From Glycomyces tenuis DSM 44171 (GTDB taxonomy: Bacteria; Actinomycetota; Actinomycetes; Mycobacteriales; Micromonosporaceae), in the NCBI RefSeq assembly GCF_000427885.1, contig NZ_ATYW01000020.1:1-64000 (forward strand): a stretch of DNA of 64,000 bases, written 5' to 3'. The notes under the pieces are model-generated. The model ran no database searches, was not told where the DNA came from, and worked only from the letters and a program-made list of their open reading frames with translations. The position numbers and the translations under genes were made by a program. The first letter of the stretch is position 1. Each line of letters starts with the position of its first letter. Positions 9,674-26,936 of the stretch are shown here, in pieces.

Positions 9674-9784
9674 ATGCGCCGAGCGTTCATGTCCGACCAG
9701 GAAGGAATCATCGTCAAAACGGAGGACATGACCGTACGTGCGCACACTCAACCTCGGCATCCTGGCCCATGTCGACGCCGGTAA
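9674..9784 (+). CDS. Upstream ORF overlapping the ribosomal-protection gene (possible leader peptide)
   Basis: 36 codons (MRRAFMSDQEGIIVKTEDMT... ending in PCRRR), preceded by AAGGGAG at a 6-nt spacing. It overlaps the first 47 nt of the Tet(M)-like gene in another frame. Classical tet(M) is controlled by a translated leader that senses slowed ribosomes, so a regulatory uORF is plausible here. Whether it is translated is unknown, and the sequence is not like the tet(M) leader. Confidence 0.4.
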   Translation: MRRAFMSDQEGIIVKTEDMTVRAHTQPRHPGPCRRR

Positions 9785-11726
9785 GACCAGCCTGACCGAG
9801 CGGCTGCTCCACGAGGCCGGCGTCACCGACGAGATCGGCAGCGTCGACGACGGCAGCACGCTGACCGACTCGCTCGCGCTCGAACGCCGCCGCGGCATCA
9901 CCATCAAGGCCGCCGTGGTCTCCTTCGCGCTCGGCGAGACCACCGTCAACCTCATCGACACGCCCGGCCACCCCGACTTCATCGCCGAGGTCGAACGGGC
10001 CCTCGGCGTGCTCGACGGCGCGGTCCTGGTGATCTCGGCCGTCGAGGGCGTGCAGGCCCAGACCCGCGTCCTGATGCGGGCGCTGCGGCGCCTGCGCATC
10101 CCGACGCTCCTGTTCGTCAACAAGATCGACCGCGAGGGCGCCCGGTACGGCGGCCTGCTGCGCGAGATCGCCGAGAAGCTCGACCCCTCGACGATCGCGA
10201 TGGACACCGTGGTGCGGGTCCCCGGCCTCCGCGCCCGGACCCGCTCGCTGCCCCGCACCGACCAGGTGTTCGGGGCCGAGCTGGCCGACCTGCTCGCCGA
10301 GCATGACGACGCCTTCCTCGCCGACTACGTCCGCGACGAGCGCTCGGCCACGCCCGAGCGACTCCGCCGGTCCCTGGCCGCCCAGACCGGCCGGGCGCGC
10401 GTCTTCCCCGTCCACTTCGGCTCGGCCATCACCGGCGAGGGCGTCGAGGGCCTCACCGAAGGCATCCGCCACCTGCTCCCGGCCGCGGCGGCCGACGCGG
10501 ACGGCCCGGTCTCGGGCACCGTCTTCAAGGTCGAACGCGGCCCGGCGGGGGAGAAGATCGCCTACGCCCGCCTGTTCTCCGGCACCATCCGCGTCCGCGA
10601 CCGCCTGCCCTTCGGCGACGGCAAGGAGGGCAAGGCGACCGCCGTCAGCGTCTTCGACCAGGGCACCGACCGCCGCCGGCCGTCGGTCGAGGCGGGCCGG
10701 ATCGCGAAGCTGTGGGGCCTGGACGCGCGGATCGGCGACCCGATCGGCCTCGAGCCGCCGACCCGGACCGAGCACTTCGCGCCGCCCACGCTGGAGACCG
10801 TCGTCGTCCCCTCCCGCCCCGGCGACAAGGGCGCCCTGCATCTGGCGCTCACCCAGCTCGCCGAGGCCGACCCGCTCATCGGCCTGCGCCACGACGAGCG
10901 ACGCTCGGAGCTCTCGCTCTCCCTGTACGGCGAGGTCCAGAAAGAGGTCATCGGCGCGACGCTCGCCGAGGAGTTCGGGCTCGACGTGGACTTCCGCGCC
11001 TCGACCGTCATCTGCGTCGAGCGGCCGACCGGCTCGGGTGAGGCCGTCGAGCACATCGCCAAGGCGCCGAACCCGTTCCTGGCCACGGTCGGGCTGCGGA
11101 TCGACCCGGCCCCGACCGGCTCGGGCATCGGCTTCCGCCTCGGCGTCGAGCTCGGATCGATGCCGTTCGCGTTCTTCAAGGCCGTCGAGGAGACCGTCCA
11201 CGAGACCCTCGCCCAGGGCCTGCGCGGCTGGCAGGTCGCCGACTGCACCGTCACCATGACCCACTCCGGGTACTGGGCCAGGCAGAGCACCGCGCACGGC
11301 GGCTTCGACAAGAGCATGTCCAGCACCGCGGGCGACTTCCGCGGCCTGACGCCCCTGGTGCTGATGGACGCGCTGCGCACCGCCGGGACGGCCGTGCACG
11401 AGCCGATCCACCGCTTCCGCCTCGACCTCCCGGCCGAGGCCCTCGGCCCGGTCCTGGCCGCGCTCGCGAAGCTCCGGGCCGTGCCCGAGACGCCGCGGCT
11501 GAACGGCGGGGAGTGCACCTTGGAGGGCACCGTCCCGGCCGCGTCCGTCCACGAGCTCGGGCAGCGGCTGCCCTCGCTGACCGGCGGCGAAGGCGTCGCC
11601 GAGAGCGCGTTCGAACGCTACGAGCCGGTGAGCGGCCCGGTCCCGAGCCGCTCCAGGACCGACCACAATCCGCTCGACCGAGAGGAGTACCTCCTGGCCG
11701 TCGTCCGCCGCGTCGCCGGACGCTGA
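9738..11726 (+). CDS. Tet(M)/OtrA-type ribosomal-protection GTPase
   Basis: 662 residues, the usual length of the class (about 640-665). The GTPase motifs are all present: AHVDAGKTS (residues 10-18), RGITI, DTPGH and NKID. ITELGSVD-like (DEIGSVDDGSTLTDS) and DGAVLVISAVEGVQAQTR are typical of Tet(M)/OtrA rather than of housekeeping EF-G. Domains II-V follow, with GYWARQSTAHGG in domain IV. Such proteins dislodge tetracycline from the ribosomal A site using GTP. The start is forced: an in-frame TGA sits at 9729, so the GTG at 9738 is the first possible codon; GGAGG lies 12 nt away, further than ideal. It could also be an EF-G paralogue not involved in resistance. Confidence 0.85.
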   Translation: MRTLNLGILAHVDAGKTSLTERLLHEAGVTDEIGSVDDGSTLTDSLALERRRGITIKAAVVSFALGETTVNLIDTPGHPDFIAEVERALGVLDGAVLVISAVEGVQAQTRVLMRALRRLRIPTLLFVNKIDREGARYGGLLREIAEKLDPSTIAMDTVVRVPGLRARTRSLPRTDQVFGAELADLLAEHDDAFLADYVRDERSATPERLRRSLAAQTGRARVFPVHFGSAITGEGVEGLTEGIRHLLPAAAADADGPVSGTVFKVERGPAGEKIAYARLFSGTIRVRDRLPFGDGKEGKATAVSVFDQGTDRRRPSVEAGRIAKLWGLDARIGDPIGLEPPTRTEHFAPPTLETVVVPSRPGDKGALHLALTQLAEADPLIGLRHDERRSELSLSLYGEVQKEVIGATLAEEFGLDVDFRASTVICVERPTGSGEAVEHIAKAPNPFLATVGLRIDPAPTGSGIGFRLGVELGSMPFAFFKAVEETVHETLAQGLRGWQVADCTVTMTHSGYWARQSTAHGGFDKSMSSTAGDFRGLTPLVLMDALRTAGTAVHEPIHRFRLDLPAEALGPVLAALAKLRAVPETPRLNGGECTLEGTVPAASVHELGQRLPSLTGGEGVAESAFERYEPVSGPVPSRSRTDHNPLDREEYLLAVVRRVAGR

Positions 11727-12686: not shown

Positions 12687-13355
12687 ATGCACATCGTCAT
12701 CGCCGGAGGACACGGACAGATCGCGCTGCGCCTGACCGAGGCCATGGCCGCCAGAGGCCACGCGGTCACCGGCCTGGTCCGCAATCCCGACCACACCGAG
12801 GACATCACGGCGATCGGCGGGCGGCCGATCGTGCTCGACCTCGAACAGGCCGACGTCGAGCACGTCTCGGGGCTCCTGGAGGACGTCGACGCCGTCGTCT
12901 TCGCCGCCGGGGCCGGACCGGGCAGCGGAGTGGACAGAAAGGACACCGTCGACCGGGCGGCATCGGTCCTCATGGCCGACGCGGCCGAGCAGGCCGGGGT
13001 CACCCGCTTTCTCCAGATCTCCACCATGGGCGCCGGAAGGGCCCCCGAGCCGGGGCGCGGCGAGGTCTGGGAGGCCTACATCGAGGCCAAGACCCGCGCC
13101 GAGGACGACCTCCGCTCGCGCGACCTCGACTGGGTCATCGTGCGCCCGGGCCGCCTGACCGACGACGAGCCGACCGGGACGGTGACGCTGGCCGAGGCGG
13201 TGGGCGGCGGCGAGATCGCCCGCGCCGACGTGGCCGCGGTGCTCGCCGCGCTCCTCGAGGCGCCCGAGCTGACCTGCCGCACCCTCGAACTGGTCGGCGG
13301 CGGGACGCCGATCGCCGACGCCATCGCGACCCTGGCGGCGCCCGAACAGGCCTGA
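12687..13355 (+). CDS. NAD(P)-binding atypical SDR-family protein
   Basis: 222 residues. The N-terminal Rossmann motif is IVIAGGHGQIALRL (G-x-x-G), and WVIVRPGRLTDDEPTGTV in the C-terminal half is typical of the YwnB/SDR_a5 group of NmrA-like proteins. There is no standard SDR YxxxK pair at the expected site apart from AYIEAKTRAED, which resembles it. It probably senses or reduces with NAD(P)H. It is a single gene under its own leaderless promoter. Confidence 0.83.
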   Translation: MHIVIAGGHGQIALRLTEAMAARGHAVTGLVRNPDHTEDITAIGGRPIVLDLEQADVEHVSGLLEDVDAVVFAAGAGPGSGVDRKDTVDRAASVLMADAAEQAGVTRFLQISTMGAGRAPEPGRGEVWEAYIEAKTRAEDDLRSRDLDWVIVRPGRLTDDEPTGTVTLAEAVGGGEIARADVAAVLAALLEAPELTCRTLELVGGGTPIADAIATLAAPEQA

Positions 13356-13386
13356 CCGCCGCGGCCCGGCTCACGGCGGAAATCGT

Positions 13387-13415
13387 TTGCGGCCCTGCGG
13401 CGGCGCGCCGATACT
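13387..13415 (+). promoter_or_regulatory. Leaderless promoter of kinase-like gene
   Basis: TTGCGG (13387-13392), 17 bp, GATACT (13410-13415), 6 nt to the ATG at 13422. Confidence 0.65.
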
Positions 13416-13421
13416 GGGCCG

Positions 13422-14345
13422 ATGCGCTTCGACCCCGTCCCCCAGAACGTCCGCCGCTCCGTGCTCGGTTGGAGCGGCGAGGACGGCGAACGCTGGCTCG
13501 CGAGCGTCCCCGGCACCGTCGAGCGGCTGCTGCGGGCCTGGGCGCTGCACCGGACGGGGCCGCCGTTCGACGGCGGCACCCACTCCTATGCGCTGCCCGT
13601 CGAACGCGCCGACGGCACGCCCGCCGTGCTGAAGGTGATCTATCGGGACGTGGAGAACCAGGCCGAGCCGACCGCGCTGCGCGCCTACGGCGGCGACGGC
13701 GCGGTCATGCTCTATGAGTACGATCCCGGCACCGGGGCGATGCTGCTGGAGCGGGCCGAACCGGGCGCACCGCTGCTGGAGCACGAGTTCCCCGGCCTGA
13801 GCGAGCGCGCCGCCGCCCGCGAGCGCATGGCGATCGCCTGCGAGCGCTACCGCCGGCTCTGGCGCTCCCCGGTCGTACCGGGGGAGTACCCGGACTTCCC
13901 GAAGGCGAGCGACATGCTCGCGGCCTGGGAGGCCGGCTTCGCCGAACCGCGGGCGCCGCTGCTGGACCGGATCGGCCCCGCATGGGCCGAGCGCGCGCTC
14001 GCCTGGTGCTCGGAACTGCGCGGCCCGGTCGCCGAGGGCATCGCCAACCGCGACACCCACATGGGCAACATCGTCTCGAGCCGGCGCGAGCCGTGGCTGC
14101 TGATCGACCCCAAGCCGTACGTGGCCGAACGGGCCTTCGACGGCGGCTACTTCGTGTTCAAACAGGTGCTGCACGGCCCGCTCGCCGCCGCCGAGGCGCT
14201 CCGCGCGACGGCCGAGGCCCTGGGCGCCGAGCTCGAACGCGTCCGGGCCTGGGCGGCGCTGCGCGGCGTCGACGTCGCGGCGGACCTCGACGAGAAGGAC
14301 GATCTCGCCGCCGCACTGGCCGCCGTCGAATCGATCTTGGAATGA
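13422..14345 (+). CDS. Aminoglycoside-phosphotransferase-like kinase (APH(6)/streptomycin-kinase type)
   Basis: 307 residues with the small-molecule kinase fold: VLKVIYRD (Lys71, ATP-binding lysine), ANRDTHMGNIV (Asp211, catalytic loop) and LLIDPKPYVAERAFD (Asp229, metal-binding, in the DPKP form typical of APH(6)/hydroxyurea kinases). The usual H-G-D catalytic triplet is N-R-D here. The family phosphorylates streptomycin-like aminoglycosides or hydroxyurea, but many chromosomal members have other or unknown substrates. The start is fixed by a promoter 6 nt upstream. It is followed by a hairpin and then the putative biosynthetic operon. Confidence 0.82.
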   Translation: MRFDPVPQNVRRSVLGWSGEDGERWLASVPGTVERLLRAWALHRTGPPFDGGTHSYALPVERADGTPAVLKVIYRDVENQAEPTALRAYGGDGAVMLYEYDPGTGAMLLERAEPGAPLLEHEFPGLSERAAARERMAIACERYRRLWRSPVVPGEYPDFPKASDMLAAWEAGFAEPRAPLLDRIGPAWAERALAWCSELRGPVAEGIANRDTHMGNIVSSRREPWLLIDPKPYVAERAFDGGYFVFKQVLHGPLAAAEALRATAEALGAELERVRAWAALRGVDVAADLDEKDDLAAALAAVESILE

Positions 14346-14665
14346 ACCGCGCCCGCTCCATAGTGCGCGGGCGACGACTTCACCTTCTTTTCTATTGAAA
14401 GTGCGAGTAATCGCGGCAATTGGATTCCAAAGTACCATGACGACGATCACAGTCGCCTTTTGATTCTCGATGCATCACCACTCTGATCTGCGTGAACGAT
14501 GACTCCACATGAGCGGCCGACTCGCGACCTCCAAGTCACAGCAGATGCACTGCATATCATCATCCCCAGTAGACGAGTTTCGTTGGGAGCGCTTCCCCAT
14601 GAAGGCGATCCGCGATGCTAGCCTGACCGCGGGCGCAGCCCCCGCCACAGAAGGAACCGTTCAAC
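14346..14665. other. Gene-free, AT-richer region upstream of the biosynthetic operon
   Basis: 320 bp between the kinase-like gene and the anthranilate-synthase-type gene. It starts with a hairpin (14350-14373) followed by a pyrimidine stretch, then a clearly AT-richer segment (about 14385-14600). A weak -10 (TAGCCT, 14619-14624) has no good -35. I see no trp-style leader peptide with tandem Trp codons and no known riboswitch. Confidence 0.6.
14350..14373 (+). terminator. Hairpin after the kinase-like gene
   Basis: CGCCCGC and GCGGGCG form a 7-bp stem with a 10-nt loop beginning 4 nt past the stop codon; a T-rich stretch (cttcttttct) follows 12-20 nt later. Confidence 0.6.
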
Positions 14666-16189
14666 ATGAATACAGTACGTCCACTGAGGATCGATTTGCA
14701 TCGATTCGCCTGTCCAGTAGCCGACCCGTTCGACGCCTTCATCAAACTGCGCGCGAGCCGGGGAGAACAGGAGGTCTTCCTGCTCGAATCGCTCTCCGGG
14801 CCCGCCGTGGACAAGACCCGCGCCCTCATCGGCGTGACGCCCCTGCTCGACGTCGTCGTGCGCGACGGCGCCGTCGAACTCGACGGCGCCGAGCACTGGC
14901 TGGCCTGGGCCCGCGACCGCATGACCGGCTTCGACGCCGCCCGCCCCGACGGCCGCCGCTTCCGGCTCGAACGCCGCGAGGCCCTCTGGGACGCCCTGCG
15001 CCACCTCCGGGCCGGACTGGCCGTCGACGCCGTCGACGACCGCCGCTTCGGCTTCGGATTCGTGACCCTGCTCAGCTACGACGCGGTCACCTACATCGAA
15101 ACCCTGCCCCGCCTCATCGAAGGCGACGACCGGATCCCCGACGCCGTGTTCCGCCTCTACGCCTCGGTGATCGAGATCGACCTGGTGCACCGCACCGCCG
15201 AGCTGACCGTCGCCACCTGCCGCGAATGGGACGGCCCCGACCCCGAGCGGACCCACCGCGCCATAGCCGCCGAGCTCTCCGTCGCCGACGACGCGCCGCC
15301 CGACCGCGCCCCCGGGCCGCCCCTCACCGCCGAACCGGAACTCACCACCACGCCGCGGGCCTACGCCCGGCGCGTCGAACGGGCACTCGACCACATCCGC
15401 GCCGGCGACATCTACCAAGTGCAGCTCGGCCACGAGGTCCGCACCGGCGGCAAGCGCTCCGACCTCGAGGTCTACCTGCGGATGAGGGCGGGCAACCCCT
15501 CCCCGTACATGGCCTTCATCCCCTTCGACGACATGACCCTCCTCAGTGCCAGCCCCGAGCTCCACGTCCGCATCGAGTCCTCGAAGCTCACCATGCGGCC
15601 CATCGCCGGCACCGTCCGCCGCGGCGCCGACGGCGACGAGGACGCCGAACGCGCCGCCTGGCTCCGCGGCGACGCCAAGGAGACGGCCGAGCACATCATG
15701 CTGGTCGACCTGTGCCGCAACGACCTCGGCCGCGTCGCCGAACCCGGCTCGGTCGAAGTCCTCGGCCTGATGAGCGTCGAGACCTACTCCCACGTGCTCC
15801 ACCTCGTCTCGACCGTCACCGCCGAACTCGCCGACGGCTTCGACGCCTACGACGTCGTGCGGGCCACCTTCCCGGCCGGCACCATGACCGGCGCGCCGAA
15901 ACTGCGGGCCATGGAGATCATCGAGGCCACCGAGACCAGCAGGCGCGGCATGTACGCCGGAGCCTTCGGCGTCATCGGCTTCGGCGGCTTCGCCAACCTG
16001 GCCCTGAGCATCCGCACCATCGTGGCCTCCGGCGGCACCTACACCGCCCGCGCCTCGGCGGGCGTGGTCGCCGACTCCTCGCCGCGCGGCGAATGGCACG
16101 AGACCCTCGCGAAGCTCGGCTCCTCGATCGACGCCCTCGTCGGCGACGACCGCGCCCGGCACTTCACCGCCGAAAGCGAGGGAATGTGA
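14666..16189 (+). CDS. Anthranilate-synthase-type chorismate-binding enzyme, large subunit
   Basis: 507 residues with the complete chorismate-binding domain: IRAGDIYQVQL, MRPIAGTVRRG, DAKETAEHIMLVDLCRNDLG, VETYSHVLHLVS and FPAGTMTGAPKLRAMEII. The PIAGT motif carries Ala314 where aminodeoxychorismate synthases (PabB) have a lysine (PIKGT), so the TrpE or ADIC-synthase chemistry is favoured over PabB. LLES at residues 39-42 resembles the tryptophan feedback element of TrpE. With the next gene it would convert chorismate and glutamine to anthranilate. The start has a GAAGGAA site upstream. No trpD, trpC or lyase gene is nearby, and the genes that follow are of specialised-metabolism type. Confidence 0.85.
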   Translation: MNTVRPLRIDLHRFACPVADPFDAFIKLRASRGEQEVFLLESLSGPAVDKTRALIGVTPLLDVVVRDGAVELDGAEHWLAWARDRMTGFDAARPDGRRFRLERREALWDALRHLRAGLAVDAVDDRRFGFGFVTLLSYDAVTYIETLPRLIEGDDRIPDAVFRLYASVIEIDLVHRTAELTVATCREWDGPDPERTHRAIAAELSVADDAPPDRAPGPPLTAEPELTTTPRAYARRVERALDHIRAGDIYQVQLGHEVRTGGKRSDLEVYLRMRAGNPSPYMAFIPFDDMTLLSASPELHVRIESSKLTMRPIAGTVRRGADGDEDAERAAWLRGDAKETAEHIMLVDLCRNDLGRVAEPGSVEVLGLMSVETYSHVLHLVSTVTAELADGFDAYDVVRATFPAGTMTGAPKLRAMEIIEATETSRRGMYAGAFGVIGFGGFANLALSIRTIVASGGTYTARASAGVVADSSPRGEWHETLAKLGSSIDALVGDDRARHFTAESEGM

Positions 16190-16782
16190 AAGCCCTCCTC
16201 ATCGACGCGTTCGACAGCTTCTCCCACATCATCTACCAGTACCTGCGGGTCCTCGACATCGAGACCACCGTCATCCGCTCGGGGCAGCTCACCCCCGCCG
16301 AAGCCCTCGCCCACCGCTCCGACTTCGCGGTCCTCGGCCCCGGCCCCGGCACCCCCGAGGACTCCGGCCACGTCGAGATGGTCCGCGCCATGGCCGGGAC
16401 CAAGCCCATCCTCGGCGTCTGCCTCGGACACCAGGCCATCGCCGTCGCCTACGGCGCACTGGTCCGGCCCGCCCGCCACCTCATGCACGGCAAGACCAGC
16501 GTCATCGCGCACGACGGACGCGGCGTGTTCACCGGGGCCGCACCGGACTTCAACGCCACCCGCTACCACTCCCTGATCGTCGTCGAGGAGAGCCTGCCCG
16601 CCGAGCTCGCCGTCACCGCCCGATCCGCCGACGACGGCTACGTCATGGGCCTGCGACACACCCGCCACCTCGTCGAAGGCGTCCAGTTCCACCCAGAGAG
16701 CGTCCTCACCGACGCCGGACTCGGCCTCTTCGCCGGATTCGCCGCCTCGGTCCGCGACGCCGACCCGGAGGCGAGACGATGA
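16186..16782 (+). CDS. Class I glutamine amidotransferase (TrpG/PabA type)
   Basis: 198 residues. LLIDAFDSFSHIIYQYL at the N-terminus, the oxyanion motif GPGPGTPED, the nucleophile Cys79 in GVCLGHQAIA, and the His169-Glu171 pair in FHPES make a complete glutaminase. It would feed ammonia to the chorismate enzyme encoded just upstream. The GTG at 16186 overlaps that gene's stop by 4 nt (translational coupling). TrpG and PabA cannot be told apart by sequence alone; the partner suggests the anthranilate route. Confidence 0.88.
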   Translation: MKALLIDAFDSFSHIIYQYLRVLDIETTVIRSGQLTPAEALAHRSDFAVLGPGPGTPEDSGHVEMVRAMAGTKPILGVCLGHQAIAVAYGALVRPARHLMHGKTSVIAHDGRGVFTGAAPDFNATRYHSLIVVEESLPAELAVTARSADDGYVMGLRHTRHLVEGVQFHPESVLTDAGLGLFAGFAASVRDADPEARR

Positions 16783-17402
16783 AGGTCCTCACGATCAACG
16801 GCTCCGAACGCGCCCGCGGCTCGACCTGGACGGCGGCCCGGCAGGTCCTCCAACACGCCCGCGAACGCGGCTGCGAGACCGAGGGCGTCGACCTGGCCGA
16901 CAAGCGCATCGTGCGATGCGAATGCGGACGCTGCAACTCCCGGCCCGAGCCGTGCCCCGTCGACGACGACGTGGCCGCGATCGTCGAGGCCATGATCGAG
17001 GCCGACGCGGTGGTGCTCGCCGCCCCCGTGCACGGCTTCGGACCGGCCTCGCTGATGCAGACGTTCATCGAACGCGCCGGCGTCGGCCACCTCCGCTTCG
17101 CCCGCCCGCTCACCAACAAGATCGGCGCCGCCGTCGTCGTCGGCAGACGCTACGGGCACCTCGAAGTCCACGCCCAACTGCTGCACAACCTCCTGCTCAA
17201 CCGCTTCATCGTCGTCGGCTCCGGCTTCCCCGCCATCCTCCACTCCGGAGGCGAACGGGGCGTCCTCTCCGACGCCGAGGGCATGGACGCCCTGCGCCGC
17301 ACCGTCGACAGGATCGTCGACATCGGCACCGCCCTGGCCGCCTCCGGCACCGCGCTGCCCGTGCCCGGCGAGATCGAGCGGCGACTCGGAAGGACCGGAT
17401 GA
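16779..17402 (+). CDS. NADPH-dependent FMN reductase-like flavoprotein
   Basis: 207 residues of flavodoxin fold: MKVLTINGSERARGSTWTAA is the FMN phosphate loop and VVLAAPVHGFGPASLMQTFI the second flavin loop. CECGRCNSRPEPCPVDDD is the cysteine cluster seen in multimeric flavodoxin and iron-sulfur flavoproteins. It probably reduces flavin or a quinone-like intermediate. An ATGA overlap (16779-16782) with the amidotransferase gene marks the operon. In this setting it may be a tailoring oxidoreductase or supply reduced flavin. Confidence 0.84.
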   Translation: MKVLTINGSERARGSTWTAARQVLQHARERGCETEGVDLADKRIVRCECGRCNSRPEPCPVDDDVAAIVEAMIEADAVVLAAPVHGFGPASLMQTFIERAGVGHLRFARPLTNKIGAAVVVGRRYGHLEVHAQLLHNLLLNRFIVVGSGFPAILHSGGERGVLSDAEGMDALRRTVDRIVDIGTALAASGTALPVPGEIERRLGRTG

Positions 17403-17406
17403 GCCG

Positions 17407-18660
17407 GTGACCGCCTCCGTGAACACCGGCCGGGCCGCCGGCGGCGGACTGCGGCTGCTCATCGCCGGCAAATTCGCCTCCACCGTCGCCTACGCCACCT
17501 CGTGGGTCCTGCTGCCGCTCTACGTCTACGAGGCCAGCGGCTCGGCGATCGCCGCCGCCCTCGCCTCGGCCTCCAACGTGGTGCCGTTCCTGCTGTTCGG
17601 GCTGCTCGCCGGCTCCATGGTCGACCGCTCCTCGCCGACGCGCCTCATGGCCTGGATGGAGTGCGCCAACGCCGCGGTCCTGCTGTGCGTCCCGCTCCTC
17701 GTCGCCACCGTCGGAGCCGGACCGGTGGCCCTGTGCCTCATCGGCTTCGCCTCGGCCACCGCCTACGTCTGGTTCGACGTCGCCAGTGCCGCCGCCGTCC
17801 CGGCCCTGGCCGGCAAGGACGGCGTCTTCCGCGCCAACAGCCGCCTGTGGACGGTCACGACCGTGCTCACCGCCGTCGCCGCGCCGCTCGGGCTGTTCCT
17901 GCTCGACGCGCTCCGGCTCGGGCCGACCTTCGCCGTGCTCGCCGGCTGCTACCTCGTCTCGGCGCTCCTGATCGCCCTGGTGCGCCTGCCCGCCGACGCC
18001 GAAGACCGGCGGCCTCCCGGGCGCGGCGCGGTCTGGGCCGGCATCCGCTTCATCACCGCCCATCCGCTGCTGCGCGTCTACACCGCCGTCAACGTCGGCG
18101 TCGGCCTCAGCGCCGGCGCGGTGTACGGCATGCTCGTCGTCTTCGCCTCCGAAGCGCTCGACCTCGACACCGACGACTACCGGATGGCCTGGATCATCGC
18201 CGCCTCCGGCGTCGGCGCGCTGTGCGGGGCGCTCCTGGCGCCGCGGTTCAAGTCCGCGCCGCCGATCCCCGTCGCCCGCTGGATGATCGGCGTCGAGCTC
18301 GCCCTGCTGCTGGCCTACGCCGCCGCACCGGACTGGACCCTCGCCGCGGCGGCCCTGCTGTGCTGGAACACCGTCCACACCTGCTTCCTGGTGGTGGGCG
18401 TCTCGGTGCGCCAGACCGCCACACCGCAGTCCCTGCAGGGCAGGGTGAACGCCGTGGGCCGGATGATCGTGTGGGGCTCGGTGCCGGCCGGGACGCTGCT
18501 GTGCGGCTGGCTGACCGACGCCATCGGCCCCCGGCCCGCCCTCGCGGCGCTGGCCGTCTGCGCCCTCGCCAGTCTCGTCGCCGCCATGCGCGCCCCCCGC
18601 GGCCTGCGCGCCGAATCCACCACGACGGAGCCCCCGTCCATGAAGAAAGTGAGCCAATGA
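17407..18660 (+). CDS. MFS transporter (probable exporter)
   Basis: 417 residues with about 12 hydrophobic segments. The intracellular loop 2 region (LAGSMVDRSSPTRLMAWMEC) is like drug-exporting MFS proteins of the MFS_3 type. Start: GTG at 17407, 5 nt after the preceding stop. The 3' end overlaps the glycosyltransferase start by 4 nt. Its place between biosynthetic enzymes suggests export of the product, and perhaps self-protection. Confidence 0.87.
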   Translation: MTASVNTGRAAGGGLRLLIAGKFASTVAYATSWVLLPLYVYEASGSAIAAALASASNVVPFLLFGLLAGSMVDRSSPTRLMAWMECANAAVLLCVPLLVATVGAGPVALCLIGFASATAYVWFDVASAAAVPALAGKDGVFRANSRLWTVTTVLTAVAAPLGLFLLDALRLGPTFAVLAGCYLVSALLIALVRLPADAEDRRPPGRGAVWAGIRFITAHPLLRVYTAVNVGVGLSAGAVYGMLVVFASEALDLDTDDYRMAWIIAASGVGALCGALLAPRFKSAPPIPVARWMIGVELALLLAYAAAPDWTLAAAALLCWNTVHTCFLVVGVSVRQTATPQSLQGRVNAVGRMIVWGSVPAGTLLCGWLTDAIGPRPALAALAVCALASLVAAMRAPRGLRAESTTTEPPSMKKVSQ

Positions 18661-19877
18661 ACGACCACGATCGCCCGATGCGGGCGCTGTTCGTCGCCTT
18701 CAGCCGTTCGAGCCTCGGGCACATCACGCGGATGCGCACGGCGGCGGAGCGGTTCGCCCAGGCCGGCCACGAGGTCGCCGTCGCCGCCCACGCCGAGGTC
18801 CGAGACCTGGTCGCCAAGGCCGGACTGCCCTGGATCGGGATCGACGAGATCGGCCCGGCCCCGGCCTGGCGTGGCATGGACGACGTCGCCCAGCTGCGCG
18901 CCTTCGCCCGCACCAGGCTCGCCAGCCCCGAATACGTCGCCGACTCGCTGCGGGACGAGCTGCGGGCCATCGACGACTTCGGACCCGACGTCGTGGTCAG
19001 CGACATGCGCAACACCGCCTCGGTGGCCGCCTCGATGCGCGACCTGCCGAGCTTCACCTGCCACAACCTGCGCCTGTTCCGCCACCCCATGCACGCCGTC
19101 CTGCCCGAGATCCTCGCGACCCTCCGGCAGCTCGGCGTCGGCAGCTTCCACGCCCGCAAGGCCCTCGGCGACGTGCTGCTCGTGCCCGACCTGCCGCTGC
19201 TCGACCCGCTGTCCGACATCCCCGCCGAGACCGCCGGACTCGTCTCCGGCCTGGTCTCCGAGATCCGCCACATCGGACCGCTCGCCCCCGAGCGGCTGCG
19301 CACCGGCCCGATCGCCGCCGACCGGCCCCCGCTGCTCCACCTCACCCTCGGCGGCAGCGGCGCCGGCGACAAGGACCTGCTGCGGGCGGTCGCCGCCGCC
19401 CGAGGGCTCGGCGTGCCGATGGCCGTCACCCTCGGCGTCGAGGGACCCCAGAGCGAGGTCCTCGCCGACGAGGTCCGGGCTGCGGCGGCCGGCGCCGATA
19501 TCGACATCGCGGCGTTCCGCCACGACGCCGCCGAGCTCACCGCCCGGGCGGCGGCCGCGGTCGTCCACGGCGGCCACACCTCCATGATGGAGGCGCTGCT
19601 GAGCGCCACGCCCATGGTGTTCATGCCGCACTCCGAAGAGCAGCGCGGCAACGCCGCCCGCATCGCCTCCCTCGGCCTGGGCGCCGTCGTCGAACCGGAC
19701 GACCCGGTCGAGACCGTGTCCGCCACAATGGCCTCGGTGATGTCGACGCCCGACGCCGACGCCCACGGCGCGTTCGCCGCTCTGCTGCGCTCGGCCGACG
19801 GGGCCGAGGCGATGCTCGCGCGCGTCGAGCAGGCCGTGCGCATGCACCGCATCAGAAGGGACCTCCATGCCAGGTGA
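18657..19877 (+). CDS. GT1/MurG-like glycosyltransferase
   Basis: 406 residues. SSLGHITRMRTAAERFAQAG at the N-terminus is the GT-B acceptor-side glycine loop, and AAVVHGGHTSMMEALLSATP-MVFMPHSEEQRGNAARIASLGLG in the C-terminal half is the nucleotide-sugar site of UGT/macrolide-type transferases (H-G-G...E...Q). It would attach a sugar from an NDP-sugar to the cluster product. The ATG at 18657 overlaps the transporter stop by 4 nt. No sugar-biosynthesis genes are nearby, so a common NDP-sugar would have to be used. Confidence 0.87.
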   Translation: MNDHDRPMRALFVAFSRSSLGHITRMRTAAERFAQAGHEVAVAAHAEVRDLVAKAGLPWIGIDEIGPAPAWRGMDDVAQLRAFARTRLASPEYVADSLRDELRAIDDFGPDVVVSDMRNTASVAASMRDLPSFTCHNLRLFRHPMHAVLPEILATLRQLGVGSFHARKALGDVLLVPDLPLLDPLSDIPAETAGLVSGLVSEIRHIGPLAPERLRTGPIAADRPPLLHLTLGGSGAGDKDLLRAVAAARGLGVPMAVTLGVEGPQSEVLADEVRAAAAGADIDIAAFRHDAAELTARAAAAVVHGGHTSMMEALLSATPMVFMPHSEEQRGNAARIASLGLGAVVEPDDPVETVSATMASVMSTPDADAHGAFAALLRSADGAEAMLARVEQAVRMHRIRRDLHAR

Positions 19878-20958
19878 CGACGTCCGCCTCTCCGCGGCGA
19901 TCATGACCCACCCCGCCCGGGCCGGGCACGCGCGCGAGCTGGCCGCGCGCCTGCCCGAGCTCGACCCCGTCTGCGTGGTCGACGAGACCGGGCCGGACCG
20001 CGGCAACCTCGCCAACGCGCTGCGCGCCTGGGCGGCGGTCGGCGACGACGCCACCCACCACCTGGTCCTCCAAGACGACGTCATCCTCTGCGACCGCTTC
20101 ACCGAACTCGTCCACTCGGCGGTCCGCTCCCGGCCGGACGAGGCGGTGAGCCTGTTCTGCGAATGGGGCTCGCGCACGGCCACCCTCGTGCGGGCGGCGG
20201 CCTGGCAGGGCCTGTCGTGGGCCCGGGCGGTGGACATGTACACCCCGTCGCAGGCCCTGGTCATGCCGCGGGCGGTCGCGCTCGACTTCGTCGCGAGCGC
20301 GGCGGACCCCGACGGCCCCGACGACCTCGCCCTCGCCTCCCATCTGCGCCGCACCGGCGTCCCCTCCGTGGTGACGGTGCCGAACCTGCTGGAGCACGAC
20401 GACCGCCCGAGCCTGACCGGCAACGGCTTCCAAGGGCTGCGCCGCTCCGCGTGCCCCCCGCCGCCCGGCATCGGACCGCTCGCGGCCTCGGAGGCGGCCG
20501 GGAGCGGCCTGGTGTGGCTGCCGTACGTCTCGTGGATGCGCGTGTACGCCGAATGGTGCTACTGCGGCACCATCGCCGAGCCCGCCTGGATCGGCGAGCC
20601 GGCCGACACGAAGCTCCCCAAGGGCTTCGCGAAGGCCGAGCTCGCCGACGCCTTCGCCGAGGCGCTCGACGCGGCCGACCCCGCGCTGCGGCGGGCGGTC
20701 AGCGAGGTGACGCTGTTCGAGTTCTGGACGGCCTACACCGCCCTCGGCCTCGCCGTGCCCGGCGCGGCGCGACCCGGGCCGCTGGCCGAGACCGCGTTCG
20801 GGACCGCCCTGCCGGGCGCCTTCCGCCGGTACCTGTCCGCGTCCGCGCTGGAGGCGCTGGCGCCCGCGGCCGGACGGTTCGCGATGGCCGCGTTCGCACT
20901 GGGGTCCGCGGCGGAGATCGACCGCCCGCACCCGGCGTGGTACACCGAGGAGACGTGA
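19867..20958 (+). CDS. Unassigned glycosyltransferase-like protein (QDDV motif)
   Basis: 363 residues, overlapping the GT gene by 11 nt, hence the last gene of the operon. LSAAIMTHPARAGHARELAA followed by PVCVVDETGPDRGNLANALR and HHLVLQDDVILCDRF gives a GT-A-like pattern with a D-D-V metal motif near residue 78, and DLALASHLRRTGVPSVVTVP with NLLEHDD is consistent with GT25/GT2-like transferases. The C-terminal 150 residues are unfamiliar. The call is by motif only; it may not be a transferase. Confidence 0.65.
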   Translation: MPGDDVRLSAAIMTHPARAGHARELAARLPELDPVCVVDETGPDRGNLANALRAWAAVGDDATHHLVLQDDVILCDRFTELVHSAVRSRPDEAVSLFCEWGSRTATLVRAAAWQGLSWARAVDMYTPSQALVMPRAVALDFVASAADPDGPDDLALASHLRRTGVPSVVTVPNLLEHDDRPSLTGNGFQGLRRSACPPPPGIGPLAASEAAGSGLVWLPYVSWMRVYAEWCYCGTIAEPAWIGEPADTKLPKGFAKAELADAFAEALDAADPALRRAVSEVTLFEFWTAYTALGLAVPGAARPGPLAETAFGTALPGAFRRYLSASALEALAPAAGRFAMAAFALGSAAEIDRPHPAWYTEET

Positions 20959-21022
20959 GGCGCCGCTCCCCTGAAAGGGTGAACTTCGCTGCGCGGCGAC
21001 GGGCTTTCCCGGTGCGGCCGGA

Positions 21023-21265
21023 CTAGGAGGACCGCCGGGCCGCCAGGAGCCCGCGGAGGCCGATGACCCCGATCGCCGCTCCGAGCGCGAAGGAGACCAC
21101 CGCCAGGACCAGATGCACCCAGAAGTACCCGGTCGGGTCCCCGGCGGCGTCGAACGCGAGCCCGCTCGCGTCCTCGAACAGGTTCTTCACGAACGTGGTC
21201 CACACGATCAGCGACCAGACCCCGAAGAGGAGCAGGAACCAGGAGATCGGGCGACTGAGCTTCAT
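21023..21265 (-). CDS. Small two-helix membrane protein (SCO4848-like)
   Basis: 80 residues: MKLSRPISWFLLLFGVWSLI opens the first membrane helix, then a soluble loop (TFVKNLFEDASGLAFDAAGD), then WVHLVLAVVSFALGAAIGVI. The pattern recalls the SCO4848 family of conserved Streptomyces membrane proteins, from memory. The function is unknown. The start at 21265 is chosen because a GATACT -10 lies 7 nt upstream and the protein begins at the hydrophobic region. Confidence 0.7.
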   Translation of the reverse strand: MKLSRPISWFLLLFGVWSLIVWTTFVKNLFEDASGLAFDAAGDPTGYFWVHLVLAVVSFALGAAIGVIGLRGLLAARRSS

Positions 21266-21272
21266 GCCTCCC

Positions 21273-21278
21273 AGTATC
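21273..21278 (-). promoter_or_regulatory. -10 element of the small membrane protein gene
   Basis: GATACT on the minus strand, 7 nt before the start at 21265; no clear -35. GGGAGG lies in the gap, so a leaderless or a very short-leader mRNA is possible. Confidence 0.4.
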
Positions 21279-21463
21279 CGCGCCGACGCGCCGCGCCGCG
21301 GCCGGGGCGAGCGCGCACGGTCACCGCTCACATATGGAATCCGGCGGCGCTCAGGCCGTTTTCGCGTCGATTCGACCGTGCCTCTATCCTGTGGACATGC
21401 GATCCGGTATCACGCTGTGCGCCGCTTGCGTGCATACGGTGGTCTGCGATGATGGAGACCGGA

Positions 21464-21799
21464 ATGTCATCAATGCATGGATTGGCTGATTCGAAGATGA
21501 GCCGACCGACTGGACGTGAACTGCCCACGGGGTACCCCGACCCCTCCACCGCTGGCTGGATTCGCACCGATGACCTCGAGTTCGGGGGTCTCAGCATCAG
21601 GATGACGGTGGCCCCCGGCGAACGGCTCGTCGAACTCTGGGAGCTCGAGGACGGCCATCCCCGGCAGTGGCTCGGCCACGTGTTCCGATTGGACTCCGAA
21701 CCCCCCGTCGTCCGACTCAACTACGTGTACGAGCGGCGCCTCAAGCCCGCCGAGCGCATCGCACTGGCCCGCCTCGGCGCCAAGTTCTGGAAGTCCTGA
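21464..21799 (+). CDS. Hypothetical protein (111 aa)
   Basis: Reads MSSMHGLADSKMSRPTGREL... and ends LARLGAKFWKS. There is no membrane segment and no motif I recognise; it has a beta-rich middle (LSIRMTVAPGERLVELWELE). GGAGA at 21454-21458 gives a 5-nt spacing to the ATG at 21464; ATG codons at 21449, 21473 and 21497 are other choices. Codon use is less GC-extreme at the 5' end than in neighbours. It stands alone between a small membrane protein gene and the kdp operon. Confidence 0.6.
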   Translation: MSSMHGLADSKMSRPTGRELPTGYPDPSTAGWIRTDDLEFGGLSIRMTVAPGERLVELWELEDGHPRQWLGHVFRLDSEPPVVRLNYVYERRLKPAERIALARLGAKFWKS

Positions 21800-22031
21800 A
21801 CCGGGGACCGCCCCCTCCCGAGCCCGGATGCGACCCGACGGTTCGCCTTAGTGCGCCCTGAATCCGGACCGCCCGCCCCGCCCGTCAAGCGCACGTCAAT
21901 ATCCGCTTCTCGCTCGTATCGAAGCCGTCAACCCCCTAGGCAAGCGCTCGCGCCGGGCGTTCACTCGAGTCGCCGGCCCGCACCGAGCCGGTGGCGCGCC
22001 CCGCGCCTCCTGCGATCGAGAAGAAGGAATC

Positions 22032-22115
22032 ATGCCCGATCTCGCCTACCTGGCGCTGACGGCGGCCTGCTTCATCGCCCTCGGCCTCCTCGTCAAGGCG
22101 GTGGAGCGACGGTGA
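22032..22115 (+). CDS. 27-residue membrane peptide at head of kdp operon
   Basis: [20 protein letters not shown] followed by VKAVERR: one hydrophobic helix with a basic C-terminal end. AAGGA lies just upstream of the ATG, and the stop overlaps the KdpF start by 3 nt. Position and size suggest a second KdpF-like stabilising peptide or a coupling ORF. It is not named in the classical Kdp complex. Confidence 0.65.
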
Positions 22116-22201
22116 GCGCTGTGAACCTCATCGGCGCCGTCCTCGCCGTCGGCATCGGCGTCTACCTCGTCGTCGCGCTGCTCAGACCGGAGCGGTTCTG
22201 A
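22112..22201 (+). CDS. kdpF: KdpF, small subunit of K+-transporting ATPase
   Basis: 29 residues (start [16 protein letters not shown], end LLRPERF), the exact length of E. coli KdpF. It is one membrane helix that stabilises the KdpABC complex. The GTG at 22112 overlaps the preceding peptide ORF; the GTG at 22121 is an alternative. The last base of the stop is the first base of kdpA. Confidence 0.88.
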
Positions 22202-23862
22202 TGTCCGAGACCACCGCCGGCCTCACCTTCATCGCCGCGATGATCGCGGCCCTCGCCGCCACCTACCGGCCGCTCGGCGACCACCTCTACCGCGTGGCCG
22301 CCCGCGAGCACCACCGCGCGGTCGAACGCGGCGTCTACCGGCTCGTCGGCGTCGACGCCGACACCGAGCAGAACTGGGCCGGGTACGCCCGCAGCGTCCT
22401 CGCCTTCTCCGCGGTGAGCATCGTCGCCCTCTACGGCCTGCTGCGGCTCCAGCACCTGCTGCCGCTCGACAAGGGCATGCCCGGCCTCGAACCGGGCCTG
22501 GCCTGGAACACCGCCGTCAGCTTCACCACCAACACCAACTGGCAGGCCTACTCCGGCGAGTCCGCCCTGGGGCAGATCGCGCAGACCGCGGGCCTGGCGG
22601 TCCAGAACTTCGTCTCCGCCGCCGTCGGCATCGCCGTCGCGATGGTCCTCGTGCGCGGCTTCGCCCGCAAGGCCACCGACCGGCTCGGCAACTTCTGGGT
22701 CGACCTGACCCGCATCACCCTGTGGGTGCTGCTGCCGATCTGCCTCGTCGCCGCGATCGCGCTGCTCGCCGGCGGCGCCGTCCAGAACCTCACCGACACC
22801 GTCCAGGCCACCGGGCCGGCCGGCGACACCCAGGCGATCACCGGTGGCGCCGTCGCCAGCCAGGAGGCGATCAAGAACCTCGGCACCAACGGCGGCGGCT
22901 ACTACAACGCCAATGCCGCCCATCCGTTCGAGAACCCGACGTCCTGGACGAACTTCCTGCTGGTCTACCTGATCCTCGCCATCCCGTTCTCGCTGCCGCG
23001 CGCCTTCGGCCGCATGGTCGGCGACAAGCGCCAGGGCCTGGCGATCGCCGCCGTCATGGGCGTCATCGCGTCGGTCTCGCTCGCCCTGGTCGTCGGCCTC
23101 GAGAGCCTCGGGAACGGCACCGTGCCGCAGGCCGTGGCCGCCGCCATGGAGGGCCGCGAGGTCCGCTTCGGCGTCCCCGATTCGGCCCTGTTCGCCTCGG
23201 CGACCACGCTGACCTCGACCGGTTCGGTGAACTCCTTCCACGACTCGTACACCTCGTTCGGCGGCGGCGTGCTCATCCTCAACATGATGCTCGGCGAGGT
23301 CGCACCCGGCGGGGTCGGCGCGGGCCTGTACGGGATGCTCGTGCTCGCCGTCGTCACCGTCTTCGTCGCCGGCCTCATGGTCGGGCGCACCCCCGAGTAC
23401 CTGGGCAAGAAGATCGGCGCCCGCGAGGTCAAGCTCGCGAGCCTGTACTTCCTGGTCACCCCGGCGCTGCTGCTCGTCGGCGTCGCCGCCTCCATCGCCG
23501 TGCCGTCCAACCTCGAGTCCATGCAGGAGGCCGGGCCGCACGGCCTCTCGGAGATGCTCTACGCCTTCGCGTCGGCGTCGAACAACAACGGCTCGGCCTT
23601 CGCCGGCTTCGGCGCGGACACGCCGTGGTTCAACACCGCGCTGGGCCTGTGCATGGCGCTCGGCCGCTTCGTCCCGATCGTCCTGGTGCTCGCCCTGGGC
23701 GGAGCGCTCGCGAGGCAGCGGCGCGTCCCGGCCTCGGCCGGCACCCTCCCCACCCACCGACCGCTGTTCGTCGGCATGGTCGTCGGCGTGACGCTCATCC
23801 TCGTCGCGCTCACCTTCCTGCCCGTCCTGGCCCTCGGCCCGATCGCCGAAGGCCTCCAGTAG
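22201..23862 (+). CDS. kdpA: KdpA, K+-channel-like subunit of Kdp ATPase
   Basis: 553 residues, the normal length, about ten membrane helices. The K+ filter loops are visible: [37 protein letters not shown] and [13 protein letters not shown]. KdpA selects and binds K+ from outside and passes it to KdpB. It overlaps kdpF by one base. Confidence 0.97.
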
Positions 23863-23874
23863 ATGAGGTCCGCA

Positions 23875-26025
23875 ATGTCAAGCATGGCGACAGTGGCGCC
23901 GAAGACCCGCGGGGGCCTGCTCGACCCCCGGCAGTGGCTCGAGTCCGCCCCCGCCGCGTTCCGCAAGCTCGATCCCCGCGTCATGTGGCGCAAGCCGGTC
24001 ATGTTCGTCGTCGAGATCGGCGCGGTGTTCACCACCGTGCTCGCCTTCGCCGAACCGAGCGTCTTCGCATGGCTGATCACGGTGTGGCTGTGGCTGACCG
24101 TGCTGTTCGCGAACGCCGCCGAGGCCATCGCCGAAGGCCGCGGCAAAGCCCAGGCCGAGAGCCTGCGCAAGGCCAAGACCGACACGATCGCCCACCGCCT
24201 CATCGCGCCCGGGAGCGACCGGACGCCCGAGGCCGAGACGGTCGAGGTGCCCGCGCCCGAACTGGTGCGCGGCGACCTCGTCCTGGTGACCGCCGGGCAG
24301 GTGATCCCGGGCGACGGCGACGTCGTGGCCGGCATCGCCTCGGTCGACGAATCCGCCATCACCGGCGAGTCCGCCCCGGTCATCCGCGAATCGGGCGGCG
24401 ACCGCTGCGCGGTCATGGGCGGCACCGGAGTCCTCTCCGACTGGATCGTCGTCAGGATCACCGCCGAGCCCGGCAAGTCCTTCCTGGACCGCATGATCGC
24501 GCTCGTCGAGGGCTCGGAGCGGCGCAAGACGCCGGGTGAGATCGCCCTCGACATCCTGCTGTCGGCCATGACCGTCGTCTTCCTGCTGGCCGTGGTCACC
24601 ATGCAGCCGGTCGCGATCTTCTCCAAGGACTTCATGGCCGCCTCGCCCGACACCGCCGTCCTCGACGGCGACGGCGTCACCGGCATCGTCCTCGTCTCGC
24701 TCCTGGTGTGCCTGATCCCCACCACGATCGGCGCGCTGCTCAGCGCGATCGGCATCGCCGGCATGGACCGGCTCGTCCAGCGGGGCGTGCTGGCCATGTC
24801 CGGGCGCGCCGTCGAGGCCGCCGGCGACGTCGACACGCTGCTGCTCGACAAGACCGGCACCATCACCTACGGCAACCGGCGGGCGAGCGCCTTCCTGCCC
24901 GTCCCCGGCGTGGCGGGGCGGCGCCTCACCGACGCCGCGCAGCTGTCGAGCCTGGCCGACGAGACCCCCGAGGGCCGCTCCATCGTCGTGTACGCCAAGG
25001 AGGCGCACGGGCTGCGCGAACGCCGCACCGGCGAACTCGCGCACGCCGACTGGATCGAGTTCACCGCCGCCACCCGCATGAGCGGCGTCGACCTCGGCGC
25101 CGCTCACACCGGCGACGGCGCGGTCCGCCGCATCCGCAAGGGCGCCGCCGCGTCGGTCGCCGCATGGGTCGCGGCCCGCGGCGGCGACCCGAACCCGCGC
25201 GTCGACGACCTGGTCGAGGAGGTTTCCGCCTCGGGCGGCACACCGCTGGTCGTCGCGGAGCACCGCGACGGCGAGCCGGCCGAGGTCCTCGGGGTCGTCC
25301 ACCTCAAGGACGTCGTCAAGGAGGGCATGGCCGAGCGCTTCGCCCGCCTGCGCTCCATGGGCATCCGCACCGTCATGGTCACCGGTGACAACCCGCGCAC
25401 CGCCGCGGCCATCGCCGCCGAGGCCGGCGTCGACGACCATCTCGCCGAGGCCAGGCCCGAGGACAAGATGGCGCTCATCAAGTCCGAGCAGGACGCCGGC
25501 CGCATGGTCGCCATGACCGGCGACGGCACCAACGACGCGCCCGCGCTGGCGGCCGCCGACGTCGGCGTCGCCATGAACACCGGCACCTCGGCGGCCAAAG
25601 AGGCCGGCAACATGGTCGACCTGGACTCCGACCCGACCAAGCTCATCGAGATCGTCGCGATCGGCAAGCAACTGCTGATGACCAGAGGGGCGCTCACGAC
25701 GTTCTCGATCGCCAACGACATCGCCAAGTACTTCGCGATCATCCCCGCGGTCTTCGCGGCCGTCTACCCGGGCCTGGACGCGCTCAACATCATGCGCCTC
25801 GCCAGCCCCGAATCGGCGATCGTCTCGGCGGTGGTCTTCAACGCGCTCGTCATCGTCGCGCTCGTGCCCTTGGCGCTCAAGGGCGTCGCCTACAAGCCGG
25901 GCTCCGCCACGTCGCTGCTGCGCCGGAACCTCCTGATCTACGGCCTCGGCGGCCTCGTCACGCCGTTCATCGGCATCAAAGCCATCGACCTGCTGGTCGC
26001 GCTCATACCAGGAGTGGCATCATGA
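23875..26025 (+). CDS. kdpB: KdpB, P-type ATPase catalytic subunit
   Basis: 716 residues from the ATG at 23875 (GAGGT 7 nt before; the ATG at 23863 and one at 23884 are also in frame). The phosphorylated Asp325 is in [16 protein letters not shown] ([10 protein letters not shown]) is the actuator loop, and [17 protein letters not shown] is the hinge. It couples ATP hydrolysis to K+ import together with KdpA. A 4-nt overlap with kdpC follows. Confidence 0.97.
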
Positions 26026-26936
26026 TCCGTCTTCCACGCTGGGCCTCCCGGCACCTGGCCGCGCTCCGCGCGCTCGCCGTCCTCACCGTCGTCACCGGCG
26101 TCCTCTACCCCCTCGCCGTCCTCGCCGCCGCCCAGCTCCCCGGCCTGGACGACCAGGCCGAAGGCTCGCTCATCTATGACAGCGACGGCGACGTCGTCGG
26201 CTCCTCGCTCATCGGGCAGTCCTTCACCGACGGCGACGGCGAGGCGCTCCTCGAGTACTTCCAGCCGCGGCCCTCGGCCGCCGGCGACGGCTACGACCCG
26301 CTCGCCTCCGGGGCCTCCAACCTCGGCCCCGAGAGCGTCGTCGACGCCCTGCCCGACCCCGCGCTCGGCTGGGACGGCGACGAGAACGCCGCCAAGAGCC
26401 TGCTCACGCAGGTGTGCGAGCGCAGTTTCGCGATCGGCGAGCGCGAAGGCGTCGACGGCTCCCGGCCGTACTGCACGCCCTCCGGCGGCACCGCCGTCGG
26501 CGCCGTCCTCGGCGTCTACCGCTCCGAGGGCACCTCCGGCGAGGTGGTGCGGGCGGTCAGCCTCAACGAGGAGTGCGGCACCGTCGAGGCGCCGTTCATC
26601 GCCGCCTACGGCGGCGCCCGCGTCGAGTGCGCCGCCTACGGCGAGGACCACTCGGCCGCCGTCGTGACCCCGATCAGGGGCGAGGCCCCAGCGGAGCCGG
26701 CCGTCCCCGCCGACGCGGTCACCGCCTCGGGCTCCGGACTCGACCCGCACATCAGCCCGGCCTACGCCGAGCTCCAGGCCGCCCGCGTCGCCGCCGAGCG
26801 CGGCGCCGACGAACGGGCCGTCCTCCAACTCGTCGAGGAGCACACCACCGGCCGCTTCCTCGGCTTCATGGGCGAACCGGCGGTCAACGTCGTCGAGCTC
26901 AACGTCGATCTCGACCGGGCGTTCCCGCTCACCTGA
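26022..26936 (+). CDS. kdpC: KdpC with large cysteine-containing insert
   Basis: 304 residues against a usual ~190-220. One N-terminal membrane helix (about 13-37), then the conserved [10 protein letters not shown] and ASNLGP, and later [20 protein letters not shown] with RVAAERG. Between ASNLGP (about 103) and [12 protein letters not shown] (about 228) lie roughly 100 extra residues with four cysteines (132, 151, 185, 203), on the extracytoplasmic side. KdpC assists nucleotide binding and assembly of the Kdp pump. The insert's role is unknown; disulfides are plausible. Confidence 0.93.

Follow-up and report, generated by a model that had tools for sequence, protein, structure and literature searches.

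The closest described systems belong to the SgcD/SgcG branch of chorismate metabolism. Passages of PMC10098953 describe that SgcD makes 2-amino-2-deoxyisochorismate (ADIC) without loss of pyruvate, that SgcG, with FMN and an iron-sulfur cluster ([Fe-S]), oxidizes ADIC to 3-enolpyruvoylanthranilate (OPA), and that the acyl-AMP ligase XsbC is required for cyclizing OPA; Escherichia coli carrying an SgcG homolog and an ADIC synthase without the ligase made no benzoxazolinate. The wide survey in these passages used XsbC as its probe (SgcG served as a probe within Xenorhabdus and Photorhabdus only), so ligase-free clusters would escape it. Here we describe a candidate cluster of that kind: a six-gene operon of about 6.3 kb in Glycomyces tenuis DSM 44171, found in a stretch of 64,000 nucleotides (nt; NZ_ATYW01000020.1, positions 1-64000; contig C9 of a genome of 5.74 Mb in 44 contigs) that we call the window. 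Its first three genes resemble a module that is already known; what appears to be new, judging from homology, is the combination of this module with two putative sugar-transfer genes in place of the ligase. Among the open-licence papers listed in our literature searches we recognized none on this cluster, and none with such a combination.

A conserved six-gene operon

Six genes on the + strand follow one another at 14666-20958, and we refer to them as genes 1 to 6 or, in the same order, E, G, F, M, T and X. The junctions between them, when recomputed, are -4, -4, +4, -4 and -11 nt (i.e. four overlaps and one 4-nt gap), so that gene content, coordinates and spacing are all as described in an earlier sequence-only reading of this DNA.

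We searched 200 genomes of the family (sampled from a larger group) for gene 3 at E<=1e-20, and found it in 24 of them. Thirteen of the loci are of the window type (71–100% identity to gene 3), in seven of the 22 genomes of the same genus (the source genome included) and in six genomes of a genus denoted g16; the other 11 share 47–54% identity and belong to different clusters, in which an SgcD-like E gene lies nearby in 10 of 11 cases (five placed by the tree and five by BLAST only; the exception is locus L072). All six other same-genus genomes that carry gene 3 share the full set of six genes in unchanged order, with one extra open reading frame (ORF) between genes 5 and 6 in L052, and this conservation argues that the cluster is more than a chance arrangement. 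The order F-M-T-X is kept in 13/13 window-type loci across the two genera, and E-G stands directly before F in 7/7 same-genus loci and in 0/6 g16 loci. A P450 gene and a GT2 gene follow X in 11 of the 13; the window and L061 have a short form without them, and the best P450 match in these two genomes has 31% identity.

The SgcD/SgcG-type module

Gene 1 (E; 14666..16189, + strand; 507 aa) encodes a TrpE-like subunit and gene 2 (G; 16186..16782, + strand; 198 aa, GTG start) its probable glutamine amidotransferase partner. Pfam matches bear out the TrpE-type and TrpG-type subunits that had been proposed: Chorismate_bind (PF00425, 274 bits) together with Anth_synt_I_N for gene 1, and GATase (PF00117, 156 bits) for gene 2. 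Gene 2 also exceeds the TIGR00566 cut-off (170 bits vs 121), carries the GVCLGHQ and HPES motifs, and is 60.0% identical over 190 aa (BLASTP) to the amidotransferase encoded next to SgcD in the C-1027 cluster. Among the 25 NCBIfam models listed, gene 1 passes no TrpE or PabB cut-off (364 bits vs 518 for TIGR00564), and SgcD itself likewise falls under the TrpE cut-off (345 bits vs 518). By BLASTP, gene 1 shares 43.9% identity over 492 aa with SgcD, and 38–40% over 368–434 aa with two unfused primary TrpE proteins of genus g16.

In a maximum likelihood tree of 30 proteins, 16 SgcD-type proteins (seven from this cluster, gene 1 among them; SgcD and two Streptomyces relatives; one from Pseudomonas; and five others linked to F genes) are split from 14 primary enzymes with support of 97/94. 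At 11 alignment positions one residue is common to 16/16 SgcD-type proteins and found in 0/15 primary ones, examples being Cys350 (in VDLCRND), Ala431 (in YAG) and Ser464. Gene 1 groups with SgcD and apart from primary TrpE and PabB, which makes it a candidate SgcD-type ADIC synthase. The sequence-only reading had taken the PIAGT motif (residues 312–316) to point to anthranilate or ADIC rather than aminodeoxychorismate. The argument against PabB stands: PabB proteins form a clade of their own (100/100), and an aminodeoxychorismate synthase of the PabAB type can be ruled out. The same motif is found in 16/16 SgcD-type and 5/5 unfused primary TrpE proteins and so does not tell these two types apart; it is the relatives, with SgcD as the nearest characterized one, that favor ADIC over anthranilate.

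Gene 3 (F; 16779..17402, + strand; 207 aa) belongs to the FMN_red family (PF03358, 109 bits), and had been called a flavin reductase. We favor a different assignment: it is 51.9% identical to SgcG over 183 aa (BLASTP), and its best phmmer match among solved FMN_red proteins is at E 5e-6. A tblastn search of a plasmid collection returned 53 records, at least five of them annotated as sgcG, including that of Streptomyces globisporus C-1027; an IMG/VR scan with gene 3 gave no relatives. The AlphaFold2 (AF2) model (pLDDT 86) has a flavodoxin-like fold, for which Foldseek ranks RosB (5mji, E 3.3e-11) first, then WrbA, with the flavone reductase 7d38 at rank 29. Residues 47–59 (16917..16955, + strand) form a four-cysteine motif, C-x1-C-x2-C-x6-C, whose cysteines are candidate Fe-S ligands. 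This spacing is found in 13/13 window-type proteins, and C-x2-C-x2-C-x6-C in 14 of the 15 other SgcG-type proteins (the exception is the Pseudomonas protein). Gene 3 is thus better read as a candidate SgcG-type ADIC dehydrogenase than as a reductase supplying flavin to another enzyme, given its homology to SgcG and its linkage to an SgcD-type gene (E-G-F are adjacent in all seven same-genus loci).

Other chorismate enzymes of the genome

Three proteins with PF00425 are encoded in the genome: gene 1, a fused TrpEG on contig C2 (742 aa; TIGR01815, 912 bits vs a cut-off of 739), and a PabB-like protein on C11 (395 aa) that has PIKGT and is below the pabB cut-off. TrpD is encoded on C40 (356 bits vs 199), and a separate TrpG/PabA-like protein on C10 is 49% identical to gene 2. 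Since the fused TrpEG, the PabB-like protein and TrpD are encoded elsewhere, the operon is an extra set. A primary trpEG or tryptophan operon, which the sequence-only reading would have accepted had the genome no other trpEG, can be ruled out; the scanned flanks also have no trp genes. That reading had further noted the absence of trpD, trpC, trpF, polyketide synthase (PKS) and nonribosomal peptide synthetase (NRPS) genes. The genome search places no TrpD in the window, and none of the others was seen among the scanned flanking genes, the extent to which trpC, trpF, PKS and NRPS were covered (no profile search for them spanned the whole window). The fold, the motifs and the two-subunit arrangement are shared with primary TrpE/TrpG; the difference lies in the separate tree group of gene 1 and in the fused TrpEG that the genome has of its own. 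PhzE was dismissed as well: a fused protein of about 600–650 aa would be expected, whereas E and G are separate, and the PDB match to PhzE (3r74) is at E 5e-11.

The acyl-AMP ligase

Searching locally with the ligase of C-1027 at a threshold of 1e-10, we found no match near any of the 13 window-type loci (64 kb for the window and 12.5–19.9 kb for the others). The same search found one near 7/11 of the other F loci and 4/4 plasmid references; with extended flanks, taken for eight of the 11 loci and longer than the window-type flanks, the count rises to 10/11 (the exception is L070). Overall, 14 of the 15 other SgcG-type genes have a ligase nearby, at a distance of about 23 kb in three of the loci (Fisher test of 0/13 vs 14/15, p 7e-7, a descriptive value that ignores kinship). 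Because flank lengths differ between the groups, a genome-wide search is the fairer test. Across seven same-genus genomes and two of the six g16 genomes, it returned a single weak partial match, which lies in the source genome and covers 165 aa (30% identity, E 4e-6), with nothing at E 1e-5 in the six other same-genus and two g16 genomes; the positive control genome (G184) gave a match at 5.5e-150. In the tree of F proteins, one branch (91/78) splits the window-type from the ligase-linked proteins; the Pseudomonas protein has a very long branch. Judged by homology, the three-gene cassette for benzoxazolinate (ADIC synthase, SgcG-type dehydrogenase and acyl-AMP ligase) would appear here with its first two members and without the ligase.

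Export and sugar-transfer candidates

Gene 4 (M; 17407..18660, + strand; 417 aa) is a candidate exporter of the major facilitator superfamily (MFS; PF07690/PF05977), with 57 bits to MFS_1 and NCBIfam matches that are all under cut-off, EntS included. Gene 5 (T; 18657..19877, + strand; 406 aa) is a candidate GT-B glycosyltransferase on the strength of weak matches to GT-B Pfam families (Glyco_trans_1_3, 36 bits; Glyco_tran_28_C, 34 bits); it is below the cut-off of the MGT subfamily, and profile matches include the oleandomycin glycosyltransferase 2iya (E 3.5e-13) and CalG2 (E 1.2e-10). Gene 6 (X; 19867..20958, + strand; 363 aa) is a candidate GT-A-like protein without a family in Pfam or NCBIfam; the GT-A-like part spans residues ~3–176, and the C-terminal half is left without an assignment. 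Together with the enzymes above, these genes support the earlier proposal of a non-primary cluster that contains a glycosyltransferase and is fed by chorismate. Members of the GT-A-like family of gene 6 occur in further loci as well, and two of these loci resemble natural-product clusters.

Proposed pathway and alternatives

In the pathway that we propose, the products of genes 1 and 2 would convert chorismate, with ammonia derived from glutamine, to ADIC without eliminating pyruvate; gene 3, as an FMN and probably Fe-S protein, would oxidize ADIC to OPA; OPA, or 3-hydroxyanthranilate derived from it, would be glycosylated by T and/or X instead of undergoing ring closure; and the exporter candidate M would carry the glycosylated product out of the cell. 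From the homology to SgcD and SgcG, we regard the ADIC-to-OPA core as the best reading and consider it likely. For the whole chain, glycosylation included, we see an even chance; the glycosylation, its acceptor position, the sugar donor and the export are steps that we infer only. A glycosylated anthranilate derivative is a plausible product. More tentatively, and with slightly less conviction than for the chain itself, we suggest that the loci of the two genera represent a ligase-free fate of OPA, in which glycosylation by a GT-B enzyme and a new GT-A-like family (X), followed by export, would define a hitherto undescribed class of glycosylated enolpyruvoyl-anthranilates, with P450 and GT2 additions in 11 of the 13 loci. 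In PMC10098953 and related passages, OPA is an intermediate only en route to benzoxazolinate. If the proposal is true, a small and tractable operon would lead the SgcD/SgcG branch to another chemical end point, and would give access to an uncharacterized GT-A-like family.

Several observations weigh against this proposal. Gene 1 keeps LHLVSTV around a His that is conserved in TrpE, and by sequence it could therefore be an anthranilate synthase; we take this His to have a role in pyruvate elimination, and a TrpE His mutant reportedly makes ADIC. The gene 1 tree is unrooted and has long branches (L070 and Pcor), and its primary set is small, with 15 proteins from one GTDB family. The four-cysteine spacing of gene 3 is one residue shorter than that of SgcG, and the structure model of gene 6 is of low confidence. 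The six g16 loci keep F-M-T-X without E-G beside F, and their genomes have no close SgcD relative: the best E matches have 36–45% identity, and five of them fall with primary enzymes in the tree. Each of the six g16 genomes encodes a PhzE-type protein (three are gene-called at 636–638 aa), and for two PhzE-type proteins, L115 (G133) and L108 (a second paralogue of G136), the best PDB match is PhzE 3r74 (E 3e-159 and 1e-131, respectively). Such an enzyme could supply ADIC in the E-less genomes. Since PhzE-type proteins occur in 154 of the 200 family genomes (1/22 same-genus genomes and 0/7 same-genus F carriers), their presence in g16 is to be expected, and we do not count this confounded co-occurrence as separate evidence for ADIC being the substrate of F. 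Beside the g16 cluster of G100 (L060, 15221-16171, - strand) lies a gene for a 316-aa PhzE-like C-terminal fragment (the GATase end).

A rival reading, in which E and G form an ordinary anthranilate synthase for specialized metabolism, with F as a flavin or quinone reductase and a glycosylated anthranilate as the product, is compatible with the TrpE-like sequence of gene 1, its PIAGT motif and His-containing LHLVSTV stretch, and the place of gene 3 in a family that includes FMN reductases. It is difficult to reconcile with the grouping of gene 1 with SgcD against primary TrpE, and with gene 3 being far nearer to SgcG (by the identity and E values above) than to solved FMN_red proteins and having four cysteines; moreover, none of the six genes encodes a flavin-dependent partner enzyme, and we consider this explanation unlikely. 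A benzoxazolinate-containing end product, made with an unlinked or non-homologous cyclase, would account for E-G-F as the first part of the published cassette, and clusters may borrow enzymes, as passages of PMC10098953 report for an ADIC synthase. The partial ligase match in the source genome, and no match at 1e-5 in eight other genomes with window-type loci, speak against it, and we hold it to be very unlikely. A variant that overlaps with our proposal has ADIC or OPA losing the enolpyruvyl group to end as a 3-hydroxyanthranilate glycoside; its free 3-hydroxyl would offer T or X a simple acceptor, and passages of PMC8097395 and PMC4425429 describe 3-hydroxyanthranilate as a known building block that other clusters derive from ADIC. 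No isochorismatase or 2,3-dihydro-3-hydroxyanthranilate (DHHA) dehydrogenase family, and no obvious enol-ether hydrolase, is found among the six genes, and this variant seems doubtful to us.

Genomic surroundings

The flanking genes look unrelated to the operon. According to Pfam, the two scanned genes directly upstream encode an NAD(P)-binding protein and an APH(6)/hydroxyurea-kinase-like protein, the latter adjoining the operon (13422-14345, + strand; PF04655, 83 bits, NCBIfam cut-offs missed) and without a tblastn match at 1e-8 in L014 and L050–L072. Further upstream are HAD hydrolases and an Otr(A)/Tet-type ribosomal-protection GTPase of 662 aa (9738-11726, + strand; NF000120, 738 bits, the cut-off of 900 not being reached). 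Downstream, two small ORFs without a family are followed by kdpA, a P-type ATPase gene (kdpB by position), kdpC, kdpD and a response regulator gene. These kdp genes (22201-26936) also adjoin the operon in G117 (L052, 2043-6764), where they are upstream of it on the opposite strand.

The G+C content is 57% in the 320 nt before E and 73% in the operon. Upstream of gene 1 we noted a promoter-like pair (14584-14624, + strand), made of TGGGAGCG (14584-14591) and TAGCCT (14619-14624), for which a promoter function would be our reading. TGGGAGCG followed after 27–28 nt by TARYCT is found in 7/7 same-genus loci, 70–89 nt before gene 1; none of the six g16 loci has the pair within 500 nt before gene 3, and one of them (L054) carries TGGGAGCG there in reverse orientation. 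A CebR-like operator, TGGGAGCGNTCCCA, lacks support as a complete palindrome, with four matches at two or fewer mismatches vs 3.2 expected. Rfam gave two matches in 13000–22500, both sub-threshold.

In L050, L051 and L053 (~1–6.7 kb), divergent genes for an AurF-type N-oxygenase, two carbamoyltransferases and ATP-grasp proteins adjoin the operon. We did not adopt this block as part of the pathway, because G117 has its carbamoyltransferase (88%) on a different contig. In the source genome, a search that had no positive control gave no AurF match, and the carbamoyltransferase match reaches only 42% and is interrupted by a stop. The block may still be linked, because the flanks of L054 hold a carbamoyltransferase (68%) and an ATP-grasp gene (50%). 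Other SgcG/SgcD-type clusters (L063–L068 and L070) have varied gene sets, including an amidohydrolase, a TrpB-like PLP enzyme, a chorismate mutase, a cupin and an ATP-grasp protein. The assignments of family fam11 as DAHP-synthase-like and fam12 as PhzD-like were rejected, Pfam giving AMP-binding (below cut-off) for the former and no family for the latter.

Comparison with known systems

The sequence-only reading knew no characterized cluster with this content. For genes 1–3 a known pathway does match, namely the first two benzoxazolinate steps, as in C-1027; none was found for the cluster as a whole. The paulomycin cluster (passages of PMC4425429 and PMC4802897) likewise yields a glycosylated product derived from ADIC, and differs in that a PhzE-type ADIC synthase, an isochorismatase and a dehydrogenase take the place of E-G-F. 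A set of SgcD-like, amidotransferase, ligase and SgcG-like genes was also seen on a conjugative plasmid of a plant-associated Pseudomonas (L120; NZ_CP046442.1, 27502-46029); its SgcG-like protein does not have the regular four-cysteine spacing, and similar proteins are found on other Pseudomonas plasmids among those listed. In the xsb, pbz and xvb clusters for benzoxazolinate and benzobactin (passages of PMC10098953), an SgcG homolog is thought to act on ADIC as well, and unlike the window these clusters contain the ligase; xsb (Xenorhabdus) borrows ADIC from a PhzE homolog, and the E-less g16 loci might do likewise. The closest counterpart is the C-1027 cluster of Streptomyces globisporus C-1027 (NZ_CP013739.1), which has the same combination of SgcD-type, amidotransferase and SgcG-type genes (44, 60 and 52% identity, respectively). 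On the C-1027 plasmid the order is sgcG, a gene of the phenylacetate-CoA ligase family, sgcD and the amidotransferase gene, within an enediyne cluster, whereas the window is without such a ligase and has MFS, GT-B and GT-A-like genes instead.

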